NCBI GenBank assembly: GCA_902786745.1
Contig: CADADR010000003.1
Location: forward strand, 1-64,000
Length of the DNA stretch: 64,000 nt
Reading direction: 5' to 3'
From: an uncultured Bacteroidia bacterium
GTDB lineage: Bacteria; Bacteroidota; Bacteroidia; Bacteroidales; F082
Shown here: one piece after another, positions 1 to 13,203 of the stretch
Layout of the letters: the number at the start of each line of letters is the position of its first letter
How positions within the stretch are numbered: the first letter of the stretch is position 1
Program-made: the position numbers and the translations under genes
The notes under the pieces: model-generated
The model's database searches: none
Told to the model about the DNA's origin: nothing
What the model saw: the letters and a program-made list of their open reading frames with translations, nothing else

Positions 1-194
1 GTTGTACTATTGTTTTACTCAAATTTCTATTCTGAATCTCGGGTTCCGCCTTGATGTTCTCTTTGGTGTTCCTTTGTTAAAAGGTTCCTTGCCTCGCGCG
101 GCTCCCGCCGCGCTGGTCTTGTGCTGGCCTCAGACTTTCAAAGAACTTTCGCTTTCTCCCTTCGTCCGTCCCCTCGTTCCTTCCGAAAGCGGGT
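1..194 (-). other. Probable rRNA operon leader (transcript runs off the left edge)
   Basis: Read on the minus strand this stretch starts just after a strong promoter. It carries a boxA-like AGTTCTTTGA (complement of 138-147) followed by a perfect 7-bp GC hairpin (96-113, loop of four). A boxA plus a stable hairpin after a strong promoter is the usual make-up of a bacterial rRNA leader, so a 16S gene is expected just past position 1. No 16S sequence is present in the window. The rest of the gene-free stretch, about 226-512, is AT-rich, and I see no gene or clear signal there. Confidence 0.55.
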
Positions 195-225
195 GCAAAA
201 GTACTACCTTTTCCCGAATTGGCAA
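195..225 (-). promoter_or_regulatory. Bacteroidetes-type promoter, leftward
   Basis: On the minus strand TTG (complement of 223-225) is followed after exactly 19 bp by TACTTTTG (complement of 196-203). This matches the TTG-N19-21-TAnnTTTG consensus of the Bacteroidetes primary sigma factor. It drives the putative rRNA leader to its left. Confidence 0.75.
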
Positions 226-512
226 GCACTTTTTTCATCTTTTTTCGAAATATTTTCTATGTGATTGAATATCAATGTAAAACTATTCTAAAATATTTTG
301 ATTATTGAAAACAAAAGTGCGTTTTTAGGCAAAAAGACAAGGCTAATTCGGGATATTCTTGGCTCTTTTGATGGGATAAACAGCCATTTTACGATTAAAA
401 AGAAGCGAAAAATGGCAAAATGACGAACCTGTCGAGGTGCTTTTATTAATATATAAGGTGCCAAAAACACTCTCTTGACCAACTACCGAAATGAAAAAGT
501 GAAGGCAATTTG

Positions 513-544
513 TTGCAGAGAATACATTAGTTTTAGTATCTTTG
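513..544 (+). promoter_or_regulatory. Promoter of the small gene at 569
   Basis: TTG at 513-515 and TATCTTTG at 537-544 are separated by 21 bp. Transcription should start near 550, giving a leader of only 10-20 bases before the start codon. Confidence 0.7.
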
Positions 545-568
545 CAACATAATCAACGAATGACAGCC

Positions 569-814
569 ATGCCAAACAAGACTATCAAAGGAAGTCTCAG
601 CGAAATCGTCGACAAAATGAACAAGAAGTATGACGGGCTCATTGGCGAGGGGTTCAACCTAGGTCTTGACCGACGTGTCGTACCCGTGGTCATTGACGGA
701 TCGGTGACAGGCTGGAAAATGCAACGCTACGAAAACAACGAATGGCTGGACCTGGACGAGACGCCTTTCGAAAGCATGCAGGCGCTGATTGAACACTATA
801 AGAGCGAAAAATAA
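569..814 (+). CDS. Small hypothetical protein, 81 aa
   Basis: I do not recognise this acidic, soluble 81-residue protein. It has no signal peptide, membrane segment or cysteine cluster. The N-terminal third looks helical (SLSEIVDKMNKKYDGL), and a V-rich strand and a C-terminal helix follow. A consensus promoter ends 25 bases before the ATG at 569; an in-frame ATG at 560 is an alternative start giving three more residues. The stop codon directly abuts the stop codon of the convergent rimO, with no base between them, so the two transcripts must overlap. The promoter is what makes it a credible gene. Confidence 0.6.
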   Translation: MPNKTIKGSLSEIVDKMNKKYDGLIGEGFNLGLDRRVVPVVIDGSVTGWKMQRYENNEWLDLDETPFESMQALIEHYKSEK

Positions 815-2107
815 TTACCCTTCCACTACCCCATAACAGTCAAAATAATCCGCTTGGGTGATTTTGACTTGGTAGAAATGGCCGATTTCCAATTCTTTTT
901 CTGCAGAAATAAGGATCTCATCGTCCACTTCAGGGGAGTCGTATTGCGTGCGGCCGATATAATAGTCTCCCTCAAGGCGATCTATTAACACTTTCTCTGT
1001 CTTGCCCACACGTTGTGCGTTGATCTCCAAAGATATGTTCTGCTGGATATCCATAAGTCTGTCCACACGTTCCTGCTTTACCTCGTCGGGAACGTCGTCT
1101 GTCATCTCGTATGCTGCCGTGCCTTGCTCAGGCGAGAAAGCAAACACACCAGCACGTTCGAAACGCATGTCTTTGACAAACTGACACAGCTCCTCAAAGT
1201 CCTCCTCGGTCTCGCCCGGGAAGCCTACGATAAACGTGGTACGGAAAGCAATATCGGGCACATGCTGGCGGACGTTCTTCACAAAACCGATGGTCTGCTC
1301 GCGGTCAACACCACGACGCATATCCTTTAATATATGTGTGCTGATATGCTGCAAAGGCAAATCGATGTAATGGCAGATCTTGGGATTCTCACGCATCAGG
1401 TCCAAGAGCTCATCGGGGAAACCGAGCGGATAGCCGTAATGCAATCGGATCCACTCGAAACCATCGATGTCAGCAAGTGCCTTCACCAGCTCCACGATGT
1501 GCGACTTGCCGTCAAGGTCGTGACCGTAATAGGTCAGGTCCTGGGCGATGAGGATGAGCTCTTTCACACCTTGCTTGGCCAGACCTTTAGCCTCCTCGAT
1601 GAGGTTGTCCATCGGCACGGAGACATGGCCGCCACGGATGAGCGGGATGGCACAGAAAGCACAACGGCGGTTGCAGCCTTCTGAAATCTTCAGATAAGCG
1701 TAATGTTTCGGGGTGGACAGCACGCGACGACTGCAATAGTCAGGCTGCACCTCCTCTTTCAGTAGGTCGGCAGCGATGAGATTGACGCTCTCCACGCCAT
1801 AGAAAGCGTCCACTTCGTGGATCTCCGCTTGCAGGTCCTTCTTGAACCTCTGCGAGAGGCATCCCGTGACGTACAGCTTCTTGATCTTGCCTTGCTTGCG
1901 CAGTTCGGCATATTCGAGAATGGTGTCGACGGATTCCTCCTGTGCGTCACCAATAAAACCACAGGTGTTGATGATGACCACATCGGAACGGCGTTCATCG
2001 TCATGACGGATCACATAACGGTGTTCCAGCAAAGCCGCCAAATGCTCCGAGTCGACTTTGTTCTTGGAGCAGCCGAGGGTCACGATATTGAGTGTGGGTC
2101 TACGCAT
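815..2107 (-). CDS. rimO: Ribosomal protein S12 methylthiotransferase RimO
   Basis: Radical SAM methylthiotransferase that adds a methylthio group to an aspartate of ribosomal protein S12. The 430-residue chain shows the expected order. The N-terminal UPF0004 domain has three cluster cysteines (C13 in TLGCSKNKVDSE, C49, C83). The radical SAM core has the CxxxCxxC triad in GCNRRCAFC (C145, C149, C152), and a C-terminal TRAM domain follows from about residue 365. The start is placed at the MRRPTLN methionine because family members begin right before the LGCSKN motif; an in-frame upstream extension would run into a palindromic hairpin. It follows ftsY on the same strand and ends abutting the convergent small gene. 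Confidence 0.95.
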   Translation of the reverse strand: MRRPTLNIVTLGCSKNKVDSEHLAALLEHRYVIRHDDERRSDVVIINTCGFIGDAQEESVDTILEYAELRKQGKIKKLYVTGCLSQRFKKDLQAEIHEVDAFYGVESVNLIAADLLKEEVQPDYCSRRVLSTPKHYAYLKISEGCNRRCAFCAIPLIRGGHVSVPMDNLIEEAKGLAKQGVKELILIAQDLTYYGHDLDGKSHIVELVKALADIDGFEWIRLHYGYPLGFPDELLDLMRENPKICHYIDLPLQHISTHILKDMRRGVDREQTIGFVKNVRQHVPDIAFRTTFIVGFPGETEEDFEELCQFVKDMRFERAGVFAFSPEQGTAAYEMTDDVPDEVKQERVDRLMDIQQNISLEINAQRVGKTEKVLIDRLEGDYYIGRTQYDSPEVDDEILISAEKELEIGHFYQVKITQADYFDCYGVVEG

Positions 2108-2120
2108 TCTATTATTTATA

Positions 2121-2184
2121 AAAGATTTTGAAGACATAGATACACTCGCTTATCGCTCGGTATGACATGCCTTCAAAATCTTTA
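2121..2184. repeat. Palindromic repeat, copy A (ftsY-rimO gap)
   Basis: AAAGATTTTGAAGACAT (2121-2137) pairs with ATGCCTTCAAAATCTTT (2167-2183) with one mismatch. Shorter matches inside (GATAC/GTATG, CTCG) complete a long hairpin. The core, 2130-2174, recurs at 57676-57721 with the same ATAGATACACTCG and TATGACATGCCTTC arms. It may act as an mRNA-processing or attenuation hairpin between ftsY and rimO, or be a REP-like mobile unit. Confidence 0.75.
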
Positions 2185-3138
2185 TTCAAACAAACTATCC
2201 ACAAACGCTTTGCGGTCGAAAATCTGTAGATGGTCGATGCCTTCGCCGACGCCGATGTACTTGACCGGGATCTTGAACTGGTCGGAGATGCCGATGACCA
2301 CGCCGCCCTTGGCGGTGCCGTCGAGCTTAGTCAGCGCGAGGGCGTTGACCTCGGTGGCGGCAGTGAACTGCTTGGCCTGTTCGATGGCATTCTGGCCCGT
2401 GGAGGCATCCAACACGAGCAGGATCTCATGCGGCGCATCGGGGACAACCTTCTGCATGACGGTCTTGATCTTGGTCAGCTCGCGCATGAGGTTGACCTTG
2501 TTGTGCAGACGGCCAGCGGTGTCAATGATGACGACATCGGCATCCTGGGCCACGGCCGACTTCACCGTGTCGAAAGCCACGGATGCGGGGTCGGCGCCCT
2601 GACCTTGTTGGACGCAAGGCACGCCTACCCTCTCAGCCCAAATCTGCAGCTGACTGACGGCGGCAGCACGGAAAGTGTCGGAAGCACCGAGCACGACCTT
2701 CTTGCCAGCGTTCTTGAAGTTGTAAGCCAACTTACCGATGGTAGTGGTCTTGCCCACACCATTCACGCCGACGACCATGATGACATACGGCTTCTTATCC
2801 GAAGGGATGTCGAAAGTGGTGCCGTCGCCCGACTCGTTTTCCTGCAGCAGGCCCATAATCTCCTCTTTCAGGATGGTATTGAGTTCACTGGTGCCGACAT
2901 ATTTGTCGCGGGCCACGCGGGCTTGGATGCGGTCGATGATCTTCAATGTGGTGTCGACGCCCACGTCGGAGGTGATGAGAATCTCCTCCAGGTTGTCGAG
3001 CACCTCGTCGTCGACGGTCGACTTGCCCATAATGGCTTTGGAAATCTTGGAAAAGACGCTGGTCTTAGTCTTTTCAAGTCCTTTATCGAGGTCTTCCTTG
3101 TTTTCTTTTTTCTTGGTTAGGAATGAGAACAGGCCCAT
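2182..3138 (-). CDS. ftsY: Signal recognition particle receptor FtsY
   Basis: SRP receptor GTPase that pairs with Ffh (also in this window at 47856-49190) to deliver ribosomes to the membrane translocon. At 318 residues it is the short form without the large acidic N-terminal domain of E. coli FtsY. The NG domain is complete: a four-helix N domain to about residue 105, the P-loop GVNGVGKTTTIGKLA (about 124-138), DTFRAAA, the switch motif DTAGR and the specificity motif TKLDGTAKGG. It lies downstream of rpmG and the DUF4295 gene on the same strand, but a terminator-like hairpin stands between, so expression may depend on read-through. Confidence 0.96.
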   Translation of the reverse strand: MGLFSFLTKKKENKEDLDKGLEKTKTSVFSKISKAIMGKSTVDDEVLDNLEEILITSDVGVDTTLKIIDRIQARVARDKYVGTSELNTILKEEIMGLLQENESGDGTTFDIPSDKKPYVIMVVGVNGVGKTTTIGKLAYNFKNAGKKVVLGASDTFRAAAVSQLQIWAERVGVPCVQQGQGADPASVAFDTVKSAVAQDADVVIIDTAGRLHNKVNLMRELTKIKTVMQKVVPDAPHEILLVLDASTGQNAIEQAKQFTAATEVNALALTKLDGTAKGGVVIGISDQFKIPVKYIGVGEGIDHLQIFDRKAFVDSLFE

Positions 3139-3161
3139 GATAGTTCATTTTATACAAACAC

Positions 3162-3194
3162 AAAAAAGCTCTTCCATAAAGTCATGGAAAAGCT
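3162..3194 (-). terminator. Terminator-like hairpin after the DUF4295 gene
   Basis: On the minus strand AGCTTTTCCAT and ATGGAAGAGCT pair with one mismatch around a six-base loop and are followed by a T run. It lies between the DUF4295 gene and ftsY and would reduce transcription from the ribosomal-protein promoter into ftsY. Confidence 0.6.
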
Positions 3195-3218
3195 CTGTTG
3201 TCTTGCGTTTAACGCAAA

Positions 3219-3371
3219 TTATCTTTTAGCAAGGTACTCCTGCACTTTGTCGGCAGGGACGACGATCTCATCGAAATAGTAAGCGCCGGTCTTCTCAGAA
3301 CGCTTCATTCTGATGATCTTGCTATAGGTCTTGTCTAAGCTACGAAGGGTAGCAACAGCTTTCTTTGCCAT
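3219..3371 (-). CDS. DUF4295 small protein, 50 aa
   Basis: Small basic protein beginning MAKKAVATLRSLDKTYSK and ending VQEYLAKR. This short family is typical of Bacteroidetes and is regularly encoded between rpmG and ftsY, exactly as here. Its function is not known; size, charge and neighbours suggest a ribosome- or translation-associated role. It starts 9 bases after the rpmG stop codon, so the two are surely cotranscribed. Confidence 0.9.
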   Translation of the reverse strand: MAKKAVATLRSLDKTYSKIIRMKRSEKTGAYYFDEIVVPADKVQEYLAKR

Positions 3372-3380
3372 AACTCTTAA

Positions 3381-3569
3381 TTATTTAATCTCCTTGTGGA
3401 GGGTCATTCTCTTAAGGATCGGGTTATACTTCATCAACTCCAGACGGTCGGGAGTGTTCTTCTTGTTCTTCATGGTGTAGTATCTCGAAGTGCCGGGCAT
3501 GCCGCTGGCCTTGTGCTCAGTGCATTCGAGGATGACTTTCACGCGTGCATCTTTCTGTTTCTTTGACAT
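3381..3569 (-). CDS. rpmG: 50S ribosomal protein L33
   Basis: 62-residue large-subunit protein. The sequence [19 protein letters not shown] and the ending [14 protein letters not shown] match the Bacteroidetes L33 pattern. The zinc-binding cysteine pairs of some L33 forms are absent (a single Cys in LECTEH), so this is a zinc-independent form. It is the first gene of the leftward rpmG-DUF4295-(ftsY-rimO) block and has its own consensus promoter. The L28 gene (rpmB), commonly found just upstream of rpmG in relatives, is missing here; the upstream neighbour is ftcD. Confidence 0.96.
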
Positions 3570-3596
3570 TGCTTATACTCCTTTCAAATTTGGCTG

Positions 3597-3626
3597 CAAA
3601 AGTACAACTTTTTCAAATACCCACAA
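3597..3626 (-). promoter_or_regulatory. Promoter of rpmG
   Basis: On the minus strand TTG (complement of 3624-3626) and TACTTTTG (complement of 3597-3604) are separated by exactly 19 bp. The rpmG start codon is 28 bases downstream of the -7 box. Confidence 0.8.
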
Positions 3627-3642
3627 CCAATTTTTCAAAATT

Positions 3643-5343
3643 TTATTCTCCGGCGATAACCTTATTCACAATTTGCAGAATTTCAGCCTCTTGCACAAGA
3701 GCGGCGGCCTCAATCTCGGCAGCTTCCTTCAAGATTTCGGCCTTGAAAGCCTCGTCTTTCAGCGAAGAAGCGTTGATTTTGACGTTCAAATGGGCACCCA
3801 TCACGGCCGAACGAGCGCACAAAGCACCCACTCCAGCGTCGGTGACGGAGTTGGGATTGCCAGTCTCGGCCATGGCGCGGACGACCTCAAATGCCTTGAA
3901 GGCGACCTTCATCGTGCGGAAAGGCACCTGGGTGGCATACTTGGTGGCCTCTTGGATGGCGGCACTACGGGCAGCCTTCTCCTCGTCAGTCTTCTTCGGC
4001 AGGCCGAAGGCATCCATGATCTTATTGAAGGCATTGGTATCTTCGTCGACCAGCTCAAGCAGCTCGTCCTTGATAGCCTGACCCTTGACGGCCCAGTTGG
4101 AGAACTCCTCCCAACGCTCATCCCAGCCCGGTTTGTGCGACGACAGGTTGGCGACCATCGTGGCCAACGAGGCACCGAGGGCACCCATGTAGGCCGAGAT
4201 GGAACCGCCACCAGGAGCGGGGCTTTCGCTAGCGGTCTCGTTGGCAAAGCCCGTGCAGGTCATGTCGACGAGTTTCTTCTGGCTGTGATCTTCGATGAGG
4301 TATTCGATGACCTTTTCCTTCGGGTCGAAGGGCTTCAGGTCGTCGAGGCCCATCGACTTGATGGCAATCTTCATGATTTCCTCTTCGCTCACGCCGAGGC
4401 TGCGCTGTTGCTTGGCAAGATAGAACTTGCCAGCATCCATCAGCACCTTCTTAGGAACGAGGCCAACGATTTCGCAGCCGGTGACGCGCACGCCACGGGC
4501 AGCGGCCTTGGCACAAACCTCTTCAAAGCAGACGTGGACGGGCGACACGCTGATGTTGGTGATGTTCATCGACACCTGGGCGATGCCGTAGTCCTCGATG
4601 AACCAGCCGATGGCTTTGGTAGCTTTCAGCGTTCCGGGAATCATGATCGGTTTGCCGTTTTCGTCCTTCATCGGCTTGCCGGTCACCTTGCCGCCTTCGC
4701 GCATCGGGCGACCCTTTTCGCGCACGTCGAAAGCGATGGCGTTGGCGCGGCGCGTCGAAGTGGTGTTGAGGTTATAGTTGATGGCCACAAGGAAGTCGCG
4801 GGCACCCACTTGGGTGGCACCCGTGTGGGCCACGTGTTCGTTCCATTCGTTGGGGCCGAAGTCGGGCTTCCACTGCTCCGTGCCGAGGCGCGAGGACAGG
4901 CTCTCGTACTCACCTGTGCGGCAGTAAGCGAGGTTGCGGCGCTCCTTGATGTAGGCGGCCTCTTCGTAGCAGTAAATCGGGATGTTCAGCTCGTCGCCGA
5001 GGCGTTTGCCAAGCTTGTGGGCATACTCGACCACTTCTTCCATGGTGATGTTGCTCACAGGGATGAGGGGGCACACGTCGGTGGCACCCTGACGCGGGTG
5101 GGCACCGTGGTGCAGGCTCATGTCGATGAGTTCGGCGGCTTTCTTCACCACACGGTAGGCGGCTTCGCACACAGGCTCAGGCTCACCCACGAAGGTGATG
5201 ACGGTGCGGTTGGTGGTCATACCGGGATCCACGTCCAGCAGCTTGACGCCCTCCACTTTCTCAATTTCAGCGGTCACTTGGTCAATGATATTCTTGTCGC
5301 GGCCTTCGCTGATATTCGGCACGCATTCAATGAGTTGTTTCAT
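3643..5343 (-). CDS. ftcD: Glutamate formimidoyltransferase / formimidoyl-THF cyclodeaminase
   Basis: Bifunctional enzyme for the last step of histidine breakdown. It moves the formimino group from formiminoglutamate to tetrahydrofolate, releasing glutamate, then cyclises it to methenyl-THF with loss of ammonia. The 566-residue chain starts MKQLIECVPNISEGR. The transferase part runs to about residue 310 and includes the catalytic-type HHGAHPR near residue 80. A linker and an all-helical cyclodeaminase domain follow from about 360, marked by ESPAPGGGSISAYMGALG. The animal enzyme has the same fusion at about 540 residues, whereas many Bacteroidetes have the halves as separate genes. The partner enzyme HutI is encoded 5.4 kb upstream on the same strand. 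A TACCTTTG -7 box (complement of 5535-5542) would give a leader of about 190 bases containing repeat element copy 1. Confidence 0.95.
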   Translation of the reverse strand: MKQLIECVPNISEGRDKNIIDQVTAEIEKVEGVKLLDVDPGMTTNRTVITFVGEPEPVCEAAYRVVKKAAELIDMSLHHGAHPRQGATDVCPLIPVSNITMEEVVEYAHKLGKRLGDELNIPIYCYEEAAYIKERRNLAYCRTGEYESLSSRLGTEQWKPDFGPNEWNEHVAHTGATQVGARDFLVAINYNLNTTSTRRANAIAFDVREKGRPMREGGKVTGKPMKDENGKPIMIPGTLKATKAIGWFIEDYGIAQVSMNITNISVSPVHVCFEEVCAKAAARGVRVTGCEIVGLVPKKVLMDAGKFYLAKQQRSLGVSEEEIMKIAIKSMGLDDLKPFDPKEKVIEYLIEDHSQKKLVDMTCTGFANETASESPAPGGGSISAYMGALGASLATMVANLSSHKPGWDERWEEFSNWAVKGQAIKDELLELVDEDTNAFNKIMDAFGLPKKTDEEKAARSAAIQEATKYATQVPFRTMKVAFKAFEVVRAMAETGNPNSVTDAGVGALCARSAVMGAHLNVKINASSLKDEAFKAEILKEAAEIEAAALVQEAEILQIVNKVIAGE

Positions 5344-5383
5344 TATTATAGGATTTAATATTTAAAATTCAAGATTTAAGATT

Positions 5384-5517
5384 GAGATTCTCTTCGAGAA
5401 TGGAGTTTGATCGTTTTGTATACCGCGGCGGCCTCGGGCGTCTTCCAATAGGTCAAAACCTCAAGCCGCCGCTTATAAACAACTACACACCACTCCATTC
5501 CCCGCAGGGGAATCTCA
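5384..5517. repeat. Three-hairpin dispersed repeat, copy 1
   Basis: Outer arm 5384-5406 (GAGATTCTCTTCGAGAATGG and onward) is inverted at 5492-5517. The inner arms GCGGCGGC (5425-5432) and GCCGCCGC (5465-5472) form a central hairpin. Each outer arm is itself a small hairpin. Copies 2 and 3 lie at 13076-13202 and 16979-17106. This copy falls between the ftcD start and the TonB-like gene end, probably inside the ftcD leader. Confidence 0.85.
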
Positions 5518-5573
5518 GTCCCTGTTTGCCGCGGCAAAGGTACGGCTTTTTTCTATACGAAACGAAACAGAAA

Positions 5574-6458
5574 TCAATCCTGTTTGTCTTCCAACTTGAA
5601 AACGATAGGAATCTGGTATGAAACTCTGACGGGCTCACCTCGGTGCATGCCAGGTTTCCATCGGGGCATGGATTCCACTACACGGATGGCCTCGGCATCG
5701 AGCTCGCTATCCACACCTCGCAGATTTCTTACATTGGAAATGCTACCGTCTTTTTCAACAATAAAACCAATAAAGACACGTCCTTGAATGCCTTTTTCCT
5801 TGGCTTCCTGGGGATAATGGATATTCTTGGAAATGAACTCAAACAACTTAGCCACGCCTCCTGGAAATGCAGGCATTTCCTCCACAATCTGATATATTTC
5901 ATCACCATCCAAAGTATCGTTAGACTCCACAAGATCTTCATCCTCAGCAGCACCATCAAAGTTTGGTTCAACAAACCCTTCTGTAACCCATTCTTCTTCC
6001 TCAATTCCACCTACAATTTCAAGTAGCTCATCCTTTTTGCAAGCAGCTTTCTTTTCTTCTGCTTTCATCGTATCCGGCTCCGGAGCCAGCACATCGCCTT
6101 CCAACAAATAAGCGTCGCTGGGGATGCTGTCGTTGGAGATACTATCGTTGGGCATCTCGGTGGAATCGGGAGTATGCATCACTTCACCAGCCAAAGGCTC
6201 GGGAACAGGATGATTGCATGAAGAGGCCGCAAACAAGGTTCCCAACGACATTCCAGCGAAAACCGCCGCCTTGCCCATGCGTTGGCGTTTCTCCAGCTCG
6301 CGCTCAAGATAGCGCACTTCGGCTTCGCATTTCGGGCAGGTGCCGAGGCAGTCGCCTTGGTAGGTGCATTCCGAAACGACCAAATCAATGTCGTTCTCCG
6401 CCGCTATCTGCTTGCGGATTTCCTTCAGGATTTTGCAGGTTTGTTTGCCTTTTGCCAT
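5574..6458 (-). CDS. TonB-like protein with cysteine-rich N-terminus (paralogue 1)
   Basis: 294 residues. Residues 1-65 form a conserved soluble block with C8, C31, C37, C41 and C44 (the run ECTYQGDCLGTCPKCEAEV, spacing Cx5Cx3Cx2C), followed by a charged helix. A hydrophobic stretch (66-82) ends in a lipobox-like ASSC. An acidic, low-complexity linker with several DS/ND repeats leads to a TonB C-terminal domain from about 205 (FPGGVAKLFEFI through VSYQIPIVFKL). TonB-type domains contact outer-membrane receptors; the cysteine block would sit on the cytoplasmic side if the hydrophobic stretch is a membrane anchor. The start is set at MAKGKQTC, where the homology to paralogue 2 begins. It lies 11 bases after paralogue 2, in the same transcript. 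What the cysteines bind is unknown; zinc or an iron-sulfur cluster is possible. Confidence 0.8.
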   Translation of the reverse strand: MAKGKQTCKILKEIRKQIAAENDIDLVVSECTYQGDCLGTCPKCEAEVRYLERELEKRQRMGKAAVFAGMSLGTLFAASSCNHPVPEPLAGEVMHTPDSTEMPNDSISNDSIPSDAYLLEGDVLAPEPDTMKAEEKKAACKKDELLEIVGGIEEEEWVTEGFVEPNFDGAAEDEDLVESNDTLDGDEIYQIVEEMPAFPGGVAKLFEFISKNIHYPQEAKEKGIQGRVFIGFIVEKDGSISNVRNLRGVDSELDAEAIRVVESMPRWKPGMHRGEPVRVSYQIPIVFKLEDKQD

Positions 6459-6469
6459 AGCTTTATTCC

Positions 6470-7090
6470 TTATTTGGATAATTTGAAATTGACGGGCAAT
6501 GTATATCTCACACGGACGGCCTTCCCTCTTTGCTTGCCTGGGCTCCATTTTGGCATTAGACCTATCACGCGAAGCGCTTCTTCATCACAGCCGTAGCCAA
6601 TGCCACGAAGCACTTTTGCATCACAAACAGTGCCATCTTTTTCTATATAAAACTCAACGAAGACCTTGCCTTCTATGCCTGCGTCTATGGCTTCTTGGGG
6701 ATAAACCACATTTTTTCCTATGAATTCAAACAGTTTTTGCTCGCCACCACGAAACGAGGGCATAGTTTCCGGTATCATACCAAACAGCTCTTGTTCGACG
6801 ACTTCTTCAATCGTATCCATTCGTAAACTATCCGGCTGCTGCGCCAAAGCCACTTGGCTTGAAGCCAGCAAACCCACGGAAAGCCCTGCCACCATGGCTG
6901 CCTTGCCCATGCGCTGGCGTTTCTCCAACTCGCGCTCCAAATAGCGCACTTCGGCCTCACATTTAGGGCAGGTGCCGAGGCAGTCGCCTTGGTAGGTGCA
7001 TTCCTCAATGACCAACTTAATGTCGTTCTCCGCAGCAATCTGTTTGCGGATTTCCTTTAGGATTTTGCAGGTTTGTTTGCCTCTTGCCAT
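6470..7090 (-). CDS. TonB-like protein with cysteine-rich N-terminus (paralogue 2)
   Basis: 206 residues. The first 65 residues match paralogue 1 at all but four positions and keep all five cysteines. The hydrophobic stretch that follows ends in VALAQQ, which resembles a signal peptidase I site rather than the lipobox-like end of paralogue 1. A short linker leads to a TonB C-terminal domain (PSFRGGEQKLFEFIGKNVVY through VRYTLPVNFKL). So the two copies share the cytosolic block and the TonB domain but differ in how the exported part would be released. A -7 box TACTTTTG (complement of 7117-7124) lies just after the radical SAM gene's stop, so the pair may be transcribed separately from it. The start is placed at MARGKQTC. 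Confidence 0.8.
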   Translation of the reverse strand: MARGKQTCKILKEIRKQIAAENDIKLVIEECTYQGDCLGTCPKCEAEVRYLERELEKRQRMGKAAMVAGLSVGLLASSQVALAQQPDSLRMDTIEEVVEQELFGMIPETMPSFRGGEQKLFEFIGKNVVYPQEAIDAGIEGKVFVEFYIEKDGTVCDAKVLRGIGYGCDEEALRVIGLMPKWSPGKQRGKAVRVRYTLPVNFKLSK

Positions 7091-7139
7091 GATTATCATT
7101 TTTTGTTTTAACGTGGCAAAAGTAACAATTATTATGGAA

Positions 7140-7748
7140 TCACCTTATTATATATTGAAAAATGTCAAAGTTTTCAACGCCCATGGCAGCAAGTTGCTCC
7201 TTGCTTCGCTCCACATCGTCGTCCGAATTGAAGTCCGGAATATGCGGGATGCGCACCTTGATGCGGTTAGGGTCGCCGTTTTGCAAGAGCCATTGCAGGT
7301 TTTCCAAAACGATGTTGTTCGCCTTGCCTGTGTAGGCCTCATAAATCTCGGGATTCATGTCCTTGATGTCGATGATGTAGCCGTCGACGATAGGGTCAAT
7401 GGCTTGAACCGTTGCCAAAGGCACATGAAGGCTGGTCTCGACGACAATCTGCCACTGCCTTCCGCAAAGGTCACTAAACGCTTGTATGAAAGGCAGTTGC
7501 AGCAAAGGCTCTCCCCCGCCAAAAGTGATGCCGCCATGCGTGGCCAAAAAATACAGTTGGTCGATTTTCACCTCCTCGAAGAGCAACTCGGGCGTATACA
7601 AACGGCCTCTTTCAAGCTCCCACGACTGTTTGTTGAGACAATACTTGCACCGCAAAGGACATCCCGTGAACGCCACTAAGGTAGTGACGCCCTCTCCGTC
7701 GACGGTCAAACGGTGACGGCCTATTCCGAATATCTTAGCCGTTGTCAT
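7140..7748 (-). CDS. Small radical SAM protein, activating-enzyme type
   Basis: 202 residues with the cluster motif in FTGCPLRCKYCLNK (CxxxCxxC, near residues 30-37) and the glycine-rich SAM-binding motif ITFGGGEPLLQ near 94. Size and layout match the compact glycyl-radical-activating / YjjW / NrdG-like branch, which has no C-terminal SPASM domain. No glycyl radical enzyme is encoded nearby, so the substrate is unknown. The start overlaps the end of the upstream DUF5723-type gene by 14 bases. The next genes downstream are the two cysteine-rich TonB-like proteins, which makes them possible but unproven partners. Confidence 0.8.
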   Translation of the reverse strand: MTTAKIFGIGRHRLTVDGEGVTTLVAFTGCPLRCKYCLNKQSWELERGRLYTPELLFEEVKIDQLYFLATHGGITFGGGEPLLQLPFIQAFSDLCGRQWQIVVETSLHVPLATVQAIDPIVDGYIIDIKDMNPEIYEAYTGKANNIVLENLQWLLQNGDPNRIKVRIPHIPDFNSDDDVERSKEQLAAMGVENFDIFQYIIR

Positions 7749-9168
7749 CCAAAAACTCTGGTTTTCCGGATTCGTCTATATAACGTCGCTCGGGCATCCA
7801 AAGGTTAAACACGATGCCCACCTGGGCATTGAAAGCGCTTGTATTCAAAGGCTTGAATAACCCTATAAGATTATTGGTAGTCAGATAGATATTACAGGTC
7901 TCAATCATTGCGGAGACGCCGAGGCCGATGTTGTCATAGCTGTGGGGCATCATCGTGTAGGTGGCACACACGTTGAGGTTGTTCCAGAACGAACCGCAGT
8001 AGGCCAGTGTCAATGCTGGACGGAAGCCACTGCCCAAGAAGCGGCCTTGCACCTGCGCGCTGAAGCGGTTGCATGCATCGAGGTCGTAGTTACCGCGAAG
8101 CAAAAGGTTGGTATTCAAAGCGGTGGTGTATTTATCCATAGGTGAGAACCCCACTTGGAAATAGCGCTGCAAGGTATCCAAGAAGTGTTTACGATAATCG
8201 TCATCTGAGAAAATACGTTGTACCTCGTCGACATTCAAACCCTCGAAGAGGAAGTCGCCGTTGTCATAGAAGTGGCCCATGTCGTTCACTTGGCCTGACA
8301 TGGCAATGTTGTGCTTGCCCCAATGGATGAAACCCAGGTCGCGCACCGCGGCCACAGCGCTAAAGCGCTCATCGAAACGGTATTCGGCTGCCAAGTCGAC
8401 GCCAAAACCCGGGTTGCGGAACAACTCGCCCACGCTGAAGGGGCCGTCGGCCTTCAGATGGCCTGTCTCGTCCACATAGATGACATTGGGCAGGGCGGTT
8501 TTCATGGCGATGTTTTCCTTCAAGCGGAGCGCATAGGAATCGGGATCGGTGTAGAGTTGGGCATCAAAGGCATCGGTTTTCACATTGGCCACGCCGAAGA
8601 GGAGTTTGGCCTTACCGCCCAACGAGAGCTGCTCCGTGACATTCCACTGGTAGCCCACCGCCAGTTCCTGATATCCCATGGCATTGATGTCCATATTGAC
8701 CTTGGCAGGATTGTCGTTGCCAACGAAAGCCGAGTTGCCATAGGCTGCCAGATCGAACAGCCCTTCGTTAAAGGCAAAGTCACCCTGGGCCTTCACGCCA
8801 TAATTGATGGTGATCATGCCTTTTTTGAGGCGCTTGTACAAGGTGAACAGGTCGACATTCACATCAAAGCCGAGGTAATTGTCTTCCTTCAGGCTGTTTG
8901 CCAATCTGTGCAAATTGATCGTTGCAGGACGTCCTTGCGCGTCGAAGTCGAAGCAGTTGTCGAAACGCAACGTCGTGTTTTGCAAGTCGATGCCGATATC
9001 GCCAATGACGAGCGACATGACGCTCAAATAGGGCAAGTCGGTGGCTGGGTTGGCGTTCATCTGATAAGGATTGTATCGCATGAAGTCGACAGGCGACACT
9101 TGTTGAGCCTTGACAGCACCAAACGTCAACGCAGCAAACAAAGCTATAATTATTCTTCTCTTATTCAT
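7735..9168 (-). CDS. DUF5723-like outer-membrane beta-barrel protein
   Basis: 477 residues. A cleavable signal peptide (MNKRRIIIALFAALTFGAVKAQ) is followed by YNPYQMNANPATDLPYLS, the opening typical of DUF5723/PorV-like barrel families, then many alternating strands (for example LSLGGKAKLLFGVANVKT and ERFSAVAAVRDLGFIHW). It is predicted to sit in the outer membrane. The function of the family is not known. It follows the lipoprotein gene by 18 bases and overlaps the radical SAM gene. The ATG at 9168 is preferred because it begins the signal peptide. The barrel assignment is from pattern only. Confidence 0.7.
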   Translation of the reverse strand: MNKRRIIIALFAALTFGAVKAQQVSPVDFMRYNPYQMNANPATDLPYLSVMSLVIGDIGIDLQNTTLRFDNCFDFDAQGRPATINLHRLANSLKEDNYLGFDVNVDLFTLYKRLKKGMITINYGVKAQGDFAFNEGLFDLAAYGNSAFVGNDNPAKVNMDINAMGYQELAVGYQWNVTEQLSLGGKAKLLFGVANVKTDAFDAQLYTDPDSYALRLKENIAMKTALPNVIYVDETGHLKADGPFSVGELFRNPGFGVDLAAEYRFDERFSAVAAVRDLGFIHWGKHNIAMSGQVNDMGHFYDNGDFLFEGLNVDEVQRIFSDDDYRKHFLDTLQRYFQVGFSPMDKYTTALNTNLLLRGNYDLDACNRFSAQVQGRFLGSGFRPALTLAYCGSFWNNLNVCATYTMMPHSYDNIGLGVSAMIETCNIYLTTNNLIGLFKPLNTSAFNAQVGIVFNLWMPERRYIDESGKPEFLDDNG

Positions 9169-9186
9169 AATCATGACTGATAATCG

Positions 9187-10707
9187 CTAAAAATCCAAAT
9201 TTCCTTTGTATTTGACACGGCCTTTTACCGAAAGGTCGAGCTTTTGGTTGAAGTTCAAATGCAGGTTGTGGTTCTCTGTATCAAGTTCATACGACATGAT
9301 GATGCGGTTGGAATGCAACACGTTTTCAACACGGTCTTCATCGACAACGAGCGTCACCTCTGTCGTGGCAGGCTTGCCGTCAAATGAAGCCTTTATGACC
9401 TTGGACTCACCAAGCAAGGTGTCCGTGACCATACCTGTCTCAGAGTTAAACATATAGAAACTTGCATTTAAATTGAACGGCAGTAAAGAGTTGAATGTCA
9501 GTTCGAGCGTTAACTCCTTGATGAGTTCAGGTACCTCGAGATTGGCAACGTTCATATTGACCGTGTCGACATATTTGACATCGCCAACTCTGAAAGAGAA
9601 GGGAATCTCCACATCGGCACAAAGATCGATACGGTTGGTATCGACAACAGTCACCATGTCTGTGACGTTCTCGGGATTGAGGATGTAATCGCCAGAAGCC
9701 AGGATGTGCCCTCCATCAGCACTAATCCGGAAGTTGACGGCCTTATTGAGTGCCTCTACATATTGCATCGCTGGAGGCATTTCAATCGGCAAAGGCAATG
9801 GCTCAAGGACGGAAATAGGCGCATTGTCTTTGCTCCACAAAGTAAGCGTGTCGATAATGAAACGAGCTCCCATAGGGAAGGTGTTTCGTTCGGTGAGTTT
9901 CAGCCTGACATCTTCCAATCCGAGTTGACCATCAATCGACCCAGGAAACAGCGTAAAGACCGTATCGACGCGGTCGCGGCTCGAATAACGCTCCACATAA
10001 CCCTGTATCTCTCTGAAAGCCATATCATGTCCCTTGATACGCAAGTTCACATTCAACTCCGGCTCAACTGTCACTTGTGCGCCAATTGTCACTTCACAAT
10101 TGAAGGTCAACGTATTAGCCTCTTCAGCAAAATAGCGTAAACCCGACAGATCAATCACGAAGGTGTTGTCTTGAATCGGCGTGTCGAGCACGAAATCGTT
10201 CCCAGCGGCATCCTTGATGTTGGACGTGCGCAACACCACATGCTTCAAATTGCCAATATTTGACTCCATAGTAAACTCAAGGCGTCCAGACTTAATAAAA
10301 CCTTCCCTAACGAAAACATGCTCCGACTCGAATGTGATAGTACGCTCAAAGCTCAGCACCGTATCGAGATAGGGCGGCGGAGTGGTTGGAAAGGGATTTG
10401 GGTAGGCATAATGCTCTTCATAGTCCAAATCATTGAATTTCAATATTTCATAGCCTTCCAAAATGCTATCCATCTGCATCGCGTAGTGCAACGACAAGTC
10501 GCCGTCAGCAGTCCAATAAAGCAGGTCCAGCAAGCCGAAGCGTTCCATCAAATCCTTCACAGTAAACGAAGCCGAAGCCAGTGGCGCCAGCACCTCACCT
10601 TCGGCATTCACGCCATGCACATTGCTCACGTCATAATGTTCTTTCTTACAGGAGACGACGAACAGTGCAAAGACCAGTGTCGTCAATAATAATCTATAAG
10701 GTCTCAT
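9187..10707 (-). CDS. Large lipoprotein of unknown function
   Basis: 506 residues. The lipoprotein signal peptide has lipobox VVSC followed by KK. The rest is rich in beta strands and polar residues with no enzyme motif I recognise; it reads like repeated immunoglobulin-like or adhesin-type beta domains. The ATG at 10707 shares one base with the hutI stop codon (TGATG), so its translation is probably coupled to hutI. The DUF5723-like barrel gene follows at once, and the lipoprotein/barrel pair may form one outer-membrane unit. The frame continues one codon upstream to a GTG, which I do not use. Confidence 0.65.
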   Translation of the reverse strand: MRPYRLLLTTLVFALFVVSCKKEHYDVSNVHGVNAEGEVLAPLASASFTVKDLMERFGLLDLLYWTADGDLSLHYAMQMDSILEGYEILKFNDLDYEEHYAYPNPFPTTPPPYLDTVLSFERTITFESEHVFVREGFIKSGRLEFTMESNIGNLKHVVLRTSNIKDAAGNDFVLDTPIQDNTFVIDLSGLRYFAEEANTLTFNCEVTIGAQVTVEPELNVNLRIKGHDMAFREIQGYVERYSSRDRVDTVFTLFPGSIDGQLGLEDVRLKLTERNTFPMGARFIIDTLTLWSKDNAPISVLEPLPLPIEMPPAMQYVEALNKAVNFRISADGGHILASGDYILNPENVTDMVTVVDTNRIDLCADVEIPFSFRVGDVKYVDTVNMNVANLEVPELIKELTLELTFNSLLPFNLNASFYMFNSETGMVTDTLLGESKVIKASFDGKPATTEVTLVVDEDRVENVLHSNRIIMSYELDTENHNLHLNFNQKLDLSVKGRVKYKGNLDF

Positions 10708-11948
10708 CACACAAATTTACCGTTAAGAATCATTTTAGCCACTTTGTTGGCGCCATAGTAATAAGGCATGAACTCGAGTTGCGTCATTGGCTGGGTGACG
10801 ATGAGGTTGGCGAGTTTGCCCTTGGTGATGCTGCCCACCTCGTCGCTCACGCCCATGGCATAAGCCGTATTGAGTGTGGTGGCATTAAGCGCCTCTTCAG
10901 GGGTCAGGCGATAGCGGATGCAAGCCATCGAAAGGATGAGCTGCATATTGCCTGAGGGCGAGGTGCCGGGGTTGAAGTCGGAAGCCATGGCCACAGGCAG
11001 ACCCGCGTCAATCATCTTGCGCGCCGGCGAGAGCGGCAGGTTGAGGAAGAAGGCGCAGCCCGGTAGCACAGTCGGCATGGTCTCGGAGTCTTTCAAAGCC
11101 TCGATCTCAGCATCGCCCATCTGTTCAAGATGGTCGACGGAAATAGCGCCATATTTCACACCCACCTGCACGCCGCCCGAGACGGCCATCTCGTTGGCGT
11201 GGATCTTCGGCCTCATGCCATATTTGATGCCCGCCATAAGGATACGCTCGGTGTCCTCAACAGTAAAGAAGCCTTGGTCGCAGAACACGTCAATGAAGTC
11301 TGCGAGGTCCTCGGCGGCCACGAGCGGGATCATCTCGTTGATGACCAAGTCGACATAGTCTTCTTGATGGCCACGATATTCCATCGGGATGCCATGTGCG
11401 CCAAGGAAATTCGACTTGATGGTCAGAGGCGAGTTCTCCTTCAAGCGTCGGATGACGCGGAGAAGCTTCAGCTCACTCTCGGTGGTGAGGCCATAGCCAC
11501 TCTTTATCTCGATGGCGCCCGTGCCCATGCGCATCACCTCATCGAGGCGTTGCTGGGCCATGTCGTAGAGTTCGTCCTCCGAAGCCGCCGCTGTCGCCTT
11601 GGTCGAGTTGAGGATGCCTCCTCCCCTCTTGGCGATCTCCTCATAGCTGAGGCCACGGATCTTGTCGACGAACTCCAGCTCGCGCGAGTTGGCGTAGACG
11701 AGGTGCGTGTGCGAGTCGCAGAAGGCGGGCATCACCACGCTGCCTTTCACGTCGTAGACACGATGGCTCTCAGCGAGATATTTGCGGCACACCTCCGAGT
11801 CCATTGGACCATAGTCGGCGATTTTCTTGCCTTTGATGTAGAGAAAAGCGTTCTTGATTCTACCCGTTTCGGCCATTTCCTTGCCGCGTTTCAGCAGTCG
11901 GCCTTGTTCTTCGACACCGACGAGCTCCTTGATATTGACGATTAGCAT
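10707..11948 (-). CDS. hutI: Imidazolonepropionase HutI
   Basis: Third enzyme of histidine degradation; hydrolyses 4-imidazolone-5-propionate to formiminoglutamate, the substrate of FtcD. The 413-residue amidohydrolase shows the metal-binding HTH in PAFCDSHTHLVYANSRELEF, KSGYGLTTE, HANEM, SVDHLEQM and SDFNPGTSPS, in family order. The start MLIVNIKELVGV is chosen because a longer open extension upstream is not family-like and covers the promoter region. A -7 box TAATTTTG (complement of 11969-11976) lies 20 bases upstream. It is the first gene of a leftward run whose next members are envelope genes, not other hut genes. Confidence 0.94.
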   Translation of the reverse strand: MLIVNIKELVGVEEQGRLLKRGKEMAETGRIKNAFLYIKGKKIADYGPMDSEVCRKYLAESHRVYDVKGSVVMPAFCDSHTHLVYANSRELEFVDKIRGLSYEEIAKRGGGILNSTKATAAASEDELYDMAQQRLDEVMRMGTGAIEIKSGYGLTTESELKLLRVIRRLKENSPLTIKSNFLGAHGIPMEYRGHQEDYVDLVINEMIPLVAAEDLADFIDVFCDQGFFTVEDTERILMAGIKYGMRPKIHANEMAVSGGVQVGVKYGAISVDHLEQMGDAEIEALKDSETMPTVLPGCAFFLNLPLSPARKMIDAGLPVAMASDFNPGTSPSGNMQLILSMACIRYRLTPEEALNATTLNTAYAMGVSDEVGSITKGKLANLIVTQPMTQLEFMPYYYGANKVAKMILNGKFV

Positions 11949-12036
11949 AATTTTGGAATATTTTGCTGCAAAATTAAGGAAAAAACCACCATTAGCACGA
12001 TTTTTGTTACTTTTGTCCCCCGAAAAATAGACGACA

Positions 12037-12474
12037 ATGAAAAAAAGCATCTTATTTGCCATGTTGTTCATGGTGGCTGGTCTCACCGCAAACGCACAAG
12101 AAGAGAAAAAAGAATCGAAAGTCCAGCATTTGACCTATAAGGAGTTCCTGAAAAAGGTTTGGGATTTCGAGAAAGACCCCACCACCTTTGTATATAAAGG
12201 CAAGTTGCCTGCCATCGTTGACTTTTACGCCGACTGGTGCGGTCCGTGCCGCCGTGTGGCACCTATCATGGAGAAACTGGCCGAAGAGTATGACGGCAAG
12301 CTGTTGATCTATAAAGTCAACACGCAGTATGAAACCGAATTGGCGAAAGCCTTCCAGATACGCAGCATCCCAACAGTGCTTTTCATCCCCGTGGAGGGAC
12401 AGCCGATGATGCAAGTCGGAGCCATGCCTGAAGAGGGTTACAGGAAAGTCGTTGTTGAACAACTGCTCAAATGA
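12037..12474 (+). CDS. Periplasmic thioredoxin-like protein
   Basis: 145 residues. A signal peptide (MKKSILFAMLFMVAGLTANAQ) is followed by a short linker and a complete thioredoxin fold with the active site DFYADWCGPCRRVAP near residue 70 and the cis-proline segment SIPTVLF. It is a secreted dithiol-disulfide protein that would act on cysteines in the periplasm. A -7 box TACTTTTG (12008-12015) lies upstream, back to back with the hutI promoter. Its stop overlaps the start of the WbqC-like gene (ATGA), so the two are cotranscribed. Confidence 0.9.
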   Translation: MKKSILFAMLFMVAGLTANAQEEKKESKVQHLTYKEFLKKVWDFEKDPTTFVYKGKLPAIVDFYADWCGPCRRVAPIMEKLAEEYDGKLLIYKVNTQYETELAKAFQIRSIPTVLFIPVEGQPMMQVGAMPEEGYRKVVVEQLLK

Positions 12475-13073
12475 CGCTTTTCAACACGGCATATTTTCCC
12501 AGCATCAGCTACATGGCGCGTTTTCTGAAAGAAGACGCGCCTGTCGTTGAGATATGGGAGACCTATCACAAGCAGACTTACCGCAACCGCTGCCGCGTGA
12601 TGACAGCCAACGGTGTGGAGAGCCTTAGTGTGCCCGTGATTAAGGTCAATGGCAACCACACCATGACCAAAGACATGGCCATCAGTCCCATCGAGCCTTG
12701 GCAACACATCCATAGCCGCTGCCTGGAGTCGGCCTATAAGGCGGCGCCATACTTCGACCATTATTATGACTATTTGAGGCCTATCTTCGAAGGCCATTTC
12801 GAGCGCCTCATCGACTTGAACGATGCGGCCTTGCAGGCGGTTCTGAAGATGCTGAAGGTCAAGAAGGAAATCGTGCATACTACGGACTATGTGCGCGAGG
12901 CGGAGAACGACTTGCGCGAGGCTTTCAGCCCGAAAAAGACCACAGAAGACACCTCATTCCCAGAGTATTACCAGGTTTTCGGCACCAAGTTTCCTTTTGT
13001 GCCCGATTTGAGCGTGTTGGATTTGATATTCAACGAGGGACCGGAGGCAGTGGAGTATTTGAGGATGTTATAG
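12471..13073 (+). CDS. WbqC-like family protein
   Basis: 200 residues matching the WbqC pattern: the N-terminal FPSISYMARFLKED segment, a central KTYRNRC-like region (YHKQTYRNRCRVMTANG) and a conserved HxxxLESAYK..PYFDHY block. WbqC proteins are linked to polysaccharide or amino-sugar biosynthesis clusters, but their reaction is not firmly known. The ATG overlaps the thioredoxin stop codon by four bases. No polysaccharide genes are next to it here. Confidence 0.85.
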   Translation: MTLFNTAYFPSISYMARFLKEDAPVVEIWETYHKQTYRNRCRVMTANGVESLSVPVIKVNGNHTMTKDMAISPIEPWQHIHSRCLESAYKAAPYFDHYYDYLRPIFEGHFERLIDLNDAALQAVLKMLKVKKEIVHTTDYVREAENDLREAFSPKKTTEDTSFPEYYQVFGTKFPFVPDLSVLDLIFNEGPEAVEYLRML

Positions 13074-13075
13074 TT

Positions 13076-13202
13076 AGATTCCCTGCGGGAATGGCATGCT
13101 TGTGCGTGTTACTGCGGCGGCAAGGACCATTTACCGGTTTGTAACATTTATAGCCGCCGCATTGAAATTATACGTATGTACTCCATTCCCGAAGGGAATC
13201 TC
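13076..13202. repeat. Three-hairpin dispersed repeat, copy 2
   Basis: The outer arms are 13076-13095 (AGATTCCCTGCGGGAATGG) and 13180-13202 (ACTCCATTCCCGAAGGGAAT and onward). The inner arms are GCGGCGGC (13114-13121) and GCCGCCGC (13153-13160). It fills the whole gap between the convergent WbqC-like and 7TM-HD genes and stops two bases short of the latter's stop codon. It could serve both as a bidirectional terminator. Confidence 0.85.
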
Positions 13203-13203
13203 A

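Follow-up and report, generated by a model that had tools for sequence, protein, structure and literature searches.

A five-cysteine block at the head of tandem TonB-domain proteins of Bacteroidales accompanies a small PflA-like radical-SAM enzyme and may act as its leader

Why do two neighbouring proteins with TonB domains share an almost identical, cysteine-rich N-terminus when the rest of their sequence differs much more? The question arises from the first 64,000 nucleotides (hereafter the window) of contig CADADR010000003.1 of an uncultured Bacteroidia bacterium (Bacteroidales, F082; assembly GCA_902786745.1). The two genes, P1 (206 aa; 6470 to 7090) and P2 (294 aa; 5574 to 6458), lie on the minus strand, and both products end in a TonB_C domain (PF03544; E 4e-21 and 6e-22, respectively), at residues 127 to 204 of P1 (6479 to 6712) and at 5592 to 5825 for P2, numbered from its 294-aa start. 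Comparison of the two sequences confirmed that their first 65 residues (here called the block; 6896 to 7090 in P1 and 6264 to 6458 in P2) are identical at 61 positions, with cysteines 8, 31, 37, 41 and 44 in both. As originally predicted, a hydrophobic stretch (about residues 62 to 83) follows, ending in a lipobox-like ASS/C81 in P2 and in ALA(81–83)/QQ in P1 (residues 62 to 85; 6204 to 6275 and 6836 to 6907), so that P1 consists of the block, a type-I-like signal peptide and TonB_C, and P2 of the block, a lipoprotein signal, a motif-bearing linker and TonB_C. Beyond the block the two are indeed more divergent, with 52% identity (45/86) between the TonB domains and only 33% over the 63 nt right behind the block. 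A third gene of the set, absent from the original prediction, lies 49 nt upstream of P1 on the same strand and encodes a PflA-like radical-SAM protein of 202 aa (7140 to 7748; Pfam Radical_SAM, 4e-18); the radical-SAM gene, P1 and P2 thus form a head-to-tail trio with spacers of 49 and 11 nt.

The conservation of the block extends well beyond this pair and is much higher than chance would give. Among 255 distinct blocks, drawn from many families, G4, C8, L11, R15, C31, G39, C41, C44 and E47 were invariant and C37 was present in 248, being shifted by one residue in the forms fused to the radical-SAM enzyme; the proposed cysteine set therefore holds in the homologues, four of the five residues without exception. 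Between P1 and P2 the block had a dS of 0.33–0.38 and a dN/dS of about 0.12–0.13, whereas dS between the TonB domains was saturated (about 2.7). Because synonymous divergence is so much lower in the block, part of the 61/65 identity probably reflects recent sequence exchange between the copies. Selection on the block is nevertheless real, since the cysteine pattern is kept in other families at 54–71% block identity, and the idea that the identity is due to gene conversion alone was consequently rejected, although a partial contribution stands. The view that the block is a distinct domain under strong constraint is thus upheld. The hydrophobic stretches that follow it also contain a glycine (G69) conserved in more than 90% of block proteins, and many show a GxxxG-like pattern, which exceeds the needs of a generic signal peptide.

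Searches of Pfam, NCBIfam and the PDB with the block returned nothing other than a weak match to the PhnA zinc ribbon, which was discarded as it scored 15.6 bits for the P1 block against a gathering cut-off of 30.8 (PF08274), and a Foldseek search with the block model gave no match. The block is therefore an unlisted domain. The AlphaFold model of the P1 block has helices at residues 3–21 and 42–67 with the cysteine loop between them (pLDDT 78.8); as five block models varied in mean pLDDT from 58 to 79, we take this hairpin as moderate evidence. A metal or Fe-S site is plausible from the invariant cysteines, and none of these searches added a fold or family match in its favour. The spacing of the cysteines may resemble that of SPASM/twitch domains; 16 diverse blocks gave no SPASM match at E<=1. 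SPASM and twitch domains are C-terminal auxiliary-cluster domains of peptide-modifying radical-SAM enzymes (PMC8326336). The block is similarly cysteine-rich and lies C-terminal to the radical-SAM core when the two are fused, a position that we use as a working analogy, but no sequence similarity to these domains was detected, and it is carried mostly by the substrate rather than by the enzyme.

The source genome has two copies of the block. In the family to which the window belongs, 46 of 173 genomes had one to seven copies, often in tandem, and all fell in one of the 16 genera. An order-wide draw recovered the block in 14 of 393 genomes (10 genera), and a draw of 296 genomes across the phylum found it only in the source genome and in one Bacteroidales genome; a profile of the enzyme, run against 395 genomes, picked out the same two (331 and 335 bits) and one weak match (131 bits). 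Two other families were rich in the block, with 49 of 149 genomes and up to 11 copies in one, and 44 of 149 genomes and 16 of 30 genera in the second. The search across Bacteroidota suggested at the outset thus places the block in many families, and we have seen it only in Bacteroidales. A cultured example is Segatella copri HDE06, in which the operon KUA49_RS17305–17315, labelled by NCBI as two genes for 'energy transducer TonB' and one for 'radical SAM protein' (the enzyme, KUA49_RS17305), lies on a plasmid that also bears genes for a relaxase and an integrase. Block and enzyme genes were also present on two unannotated 'Bacteriophage sp.' contigs from human faeces, MT838070.1 (L359) and MT837469.1 (L358), which are possibly bacterial or mobile-element DNA.

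The constant companion of the block is the radical-SAM enzyme, not TonB. In one of the rich families 41 genomes had both block and enzyme, 3 the block only, 1 the enzyme only and 104 neither (Fisher p 6e-32); in another the corresponding numbers were 48, 1, 3 and 97 (Fisher p 3e-34), and at least one of the 'block only' genomes (G1113) has the apparent start of an enzyme gene beside its block gene (L288). At nearly every block locus of several kilobases the enzyme gene was found within about 1.5 kb (up to about 2 kb) of the block, on either side, the loci without an adjacent enzyme being contig ends and the extra block loci of multi-copy genomes. The enzyme lies upstream of the block in the genus of the window and downstream at L064, L138, L139, L141 and L145; it is fused to the N-terminal side of the block in six genomes of a single genus, f22 (L342–L347), which are hence not independent, and in a genome of another family, G950 (L286, L287), so that at least two lineages have them, and fusions also occur at L147–L149 (at 5307–6194 in L147). 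Long open frames around some enzyme genes were not counted as fusions because they look like antisense-frame read-through. Finally, a block without any passenger sits beside the radical-SAM gene at L146, L295 and L296. It would be difficult to account for both fusion and such permuted gene order if block and enzyme had no functional link, and there is little doubt that the partnership is specific and co-inherited. The stoichiometry is uneven, as nearly all genomes have one enzyme and between 1 and 11 block proteins scattered over many contigs. At L146, L295 and L296 the lone block and enzyme adjoin a Sel1/LRR protein and a DUF3800 protein, and at L146 a DUF1848 protein and a likely mobilisation protein are also nearby.

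What the block is attached to is far more variable. Among 138 distinct block proteins, 59 carried TonB_C, 42 CarbopepD_reg_2 and 2 a serpin domain, and many others only a short tail; the list of attached domains that had been called for thus comprises TonB_C, CarboxypepD_reg-like domains, short lipoproteins and serpins. By a crude census based on regular expressions, 66 of the 138 had a lipobox-like signal peptide, 63 an AxA-like one and 9 neither. The two serpin proteins (L291 and L293) and a 140-aa protein at L339 have no signal peptide and are therefore expected to be cytosolic. The serpin fusions lie at 3036–4862(+) of L291, apparently with a HIRAN domain in addition, and at 417–1835(−) of L293, and at L292 a lone block is directly followed by a HIRAN-like protein (1941–2888(−)) that has LQGDV close to its start. 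A C-terminal tail, (E/D)GVKVIV(R/K), recurs on TonB, CarboxypepD and other passengers in many block proteins of one family (for example L172, L177, L180 and L187).

Despite this variety, the linkers and tails of the passengers have a short motif in common, LxG[DE][VI], and a run rich in Pro and Asp often comes next, as in LEGDVLAPEPDT, LMGDIYFPEDT and LMGEVEYIPDS. Measured in the same, mutually related sequences in which it was discovered, the strict form LxG[DE][VIL] occurred in 59 of 162 distinct passengers, whereas its mirror image occurred in 2 of 162; among the 34 short passengers the counts were 20 and 1 (shuffle mean 0.4, maximum 4). Passengers from at least five families contain it; some 64% of the distinct passengers do not, and looser variants exist that were not fixed in advance. 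A form defined by [DEIV] at the fourth position was found in 50% of 139 passenger representatives against 7.7% in shuffled sequences, and its density was 3.6 sites per 1000 aa in passengers, whereas neighbouring ORFs had 0.49 and exported-like ones 0.73. Within the 100 aa ahead of the TonB domain the motif was seen in 33% of block proteins and in 7% of 30 non-block TonB proteins, and an LxG/xxG variant in this position is common to many block-TonB proteins and mostly missing from the same 30. In the window, P2 has two candidate modification sites by this enrichment, LAGEV (6180 to 6194) and LEGDV (6090 to 6104), and P1 has an LxG-type variant, LFGMI (6773 to 6787), directly ahead of its TonB domain and outside the strict consensus.

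The mirror, shuffle and control-ORF tests are partly independent of the way in which the motif was discovered, as are cases in which block and motif are encoded by separate ORFs. At all six f22 fusion loci a small ORF with the motif (LIGDI, LVGDI, LIGEL, with further xxG[IL][IL] repeats) lies directly downstream of the fusion and is itself followed immediately by a gene for a TonB-dependent receptor. In G982, where the block stands alone, the next ORF has FVLQGDVMPP near its start. Downstream of the fusions in G950, the variants carried by the small ORFs are all looser (CEGDV, ILMGKP, HGIVV); three of these ORFs, at L286 (2723–3364(+)), stand in tandem, with lengths of 64–71 aa and a common MFKxL..FI start, and their products look like discrete precursor peptides. 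No convincing motif protein was found near the lone blocks at L146, L295 and L296, the matches in LRR and DUF1848 proteins there being judged domain-typical chance. The motif also occurs in proteins without an export signal, as LMGDI in the serpin protein of L291 and as IDGEL and LLGDI in the tail protein of L339. Because of these cytosolic proteins we do not regard it as a feature of export or of TonB boxes alone, and, with the separate ORFs, they led us to reject a lipoprotein sorting signal or a pure TonB box. Some copies could still be TonB-box-like strands, since in CarboxypepD-type passengers the motif sits where SusC-like receptors have their TonB box.

Taken together, we somewhat favour the interpretation that the trio is a radical-SAM protein-modification system with RiPP-like logic, in which a glycine motif is modified before export. 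The block would probably be the leader or docking domain of the substrates, bringing them to a single dedicated PflA-like enzyme. An Fe-S or Zn site probably resides in its cysteine cluster and perhaps replaces the auxiliary-cluster domain missing from the enzyme. Acting in the anaerobic cytosol, the enzyme would use LxG[DE][VI] in the linker or tail as the acceptor; that the motif is its target is fairly likely, and a modification site on the passengers is moderately supported. PflA-type enzymes abstract the alpha-hydrogen of glycine, and the invariant glycine of the motif is for this reason the likeliest target residue, the glycine chemistry as such being a tentative suggestion. In the family of the window the modified substrate would then be exported and its signal peptide presumably cut after the block. 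This would release P1 as a modified TonB-domain protein and P2 as a modified lipoprotein, while the block would stay behind in the membrane or cytosol.

The resemblance is to radical-SAM/SPASM RiPP systems (sacti-, ranthi- and cyclophane-type), which combine a leader, a repeated short core motif and one radical-SAM enzyme and to which the small precursor-type ORFs next to the enzyme gene in lineages with fusions also correspond. Here too a dedicated enzyme is tied genetically to the precursor by co-occurrence, adjacency and fusion, and a conserved leader (the block invariants) goes with a recurring core motif that is enriched over its mirror image and repeated in small multi-motif ORFs. TvgA/TvgB provide a precedent for a repeated short core motif, although with different chemistry (PMC9062424). 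Unlike RiPP maturases, however, the enzyme has no SPASM domain or RRE, and unlike RiPP precursors the leader is a folded-looking five-cysteine domain that can be split from the core and fused to the enzyme, and the substrates include exported TonB, CarboxypepD_reg and lipoprotein proteins as well as serpins.

It is also conceivable, if unlikely, that the block itself is modified at its cysteine loop, for example at the invariant G39 of CxGTCPxC to give a Cys-to-glycine thioether or a radical, and that the LxG[DE]V of the linkers has no connection with this. This would fit with the block being sufficient to accompany the enzyme, alone (L146, L295, L296) or fused to it (L147–L149, L287), and with the invariance of G39 and the cysteine set (C37 in 248/255). 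However, the motif goes with the block even in cytosolic serpins and tail proteins, and it appears in the next ORF when block and enzyme are fused; neither is accounted for in this way, and signal peptidase would discard a block so modified.

We consider it improbable that the radical-SAM protein is an ordinary activase of a glycyl radical enzyme (GRE) with the block as its Fe-S or electron-supply partner. The closest known relatives of the enzyme are indeed PflA and the GRE activases: the nearest PDB entry is PflA (profile 5e-26; Foldseek 3c8f, 7e-12), and like TIGR02493 and TIGR02494 members it has a radical-SAM core with CxxxCxxC, DGxG and GGGEP-type motifs. The CxxxCxxC motif for the [4Fe-4S] cluster and SAM (C30, C34, C37; 7638 to 7661), here CPLRCKYC, is invariant in 16 block-linked radical-SAM proteins (alignment A3), and the position of the block when fused, C-terminal to the core as in SPASM enzymes (PMC8326336), could be read in the same way. 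However, the enzyme falls below both NCBIfam activase cut-offs (TIGR02494, 130 bits against 174.35; TIGR02493, 105.6 against 231.75), has a conserved RHRxxxDGxGVTTL N-terminus that distinguishes it from these activases, and is tied to the block rather than to a GRE, none of which was recognised when the ORFs of window positions 1–14000 were read by eye. It is also small, its 202 aa containing only 4 cysteines and no SPASM, twitch, ferredoxin or RRE region, with Radical_SAM and Fer4_12 as the only notable Pfam matches. Electron supply, moreover, gives no reason why one enzyme should have as many as 11 exported block proteins.

The model originally put forward, a TonB protein in which the block senses metal or redox state in the cytosol and so controls TonB-dependent transport, is very improbable in the light of the passengers. 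Five conserved cysteines, TonB_C on 59 of 138 passengers and the receptor genes downstream of the fusions would be in keeping with it, and P1 and P2 do end in TonB_C like energy transducers, the name given to the Segatella copri homologues. Yet more than half of the passengers are not TonB proteins, the same head is found on other passengers, alone or fused to the enzyme, and the obligatory radical-SAM partner has no place in the scheme. Moreover, where TonB transducers have an uncleaved inner-membrane anchor that works with ExbB/ExbD, block proteins seem to have a cytosolic five-cysteine domain and then a signal peptide that looks cleavable, ending in a lipobox or AxA site, and block and TonB domain would therefore separate. 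Equally improbable is the view that the block serves as an extended signal for export or a tag for membrane targeting, and that its conservation within tandem arrays stems mostly from gene conversion: the block does precede both type I and lipoprotein signal peptides, its dS is far below that of the TonB domains and arrays of one to seven copies occur in the genus of the window, but it is also found without a signal peptide, fused to the enzyme or to serpins, its cysteines are invariant across families and the enzyme linkage is left unexplained.

The fullest form of the modification reading, which we regard as speculative and rather doubtful, is that a PflA-type enzyme working outside the world of glycyl radical enzymes modifies glycine in the LxG[DE]V motifs of envelope and cytosolic proteins (as a radical, a cross-link or an oxidation) while a portable, cluster-binding leader, by which the substrates are recognised, supplies in trans the auxiliary site that is built into most peptide-modifying radical-SAM enzymes. 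A literature search gave no description of the block–enzyme system, although absence there is not proof, and a keyword search of a survey of RiPP mining in Bacteroidales (PMC10352776) likewise brought up no account of it in the text so covered. If a leader-directed modification of this kind is correct, TonB-type and other exported proteins would be subject to a previously unknown post-translational modification, the leader/core logic of RiPPs would reach folded exported proteins, and a small enzyme and a short tag would become a tool for glycine-site chemistry. Segatella copri HDE06 offers a cultured host in which the system can be tested. Many genes whose present annotation is just 'energy transducer TonB' or 'radical SAM protein' would in that case be united in one system, and gut Bacteroidales would use radical chemistry to modify some of their serpins, lipoproteins and TonB-domain proteins before these are put to use.
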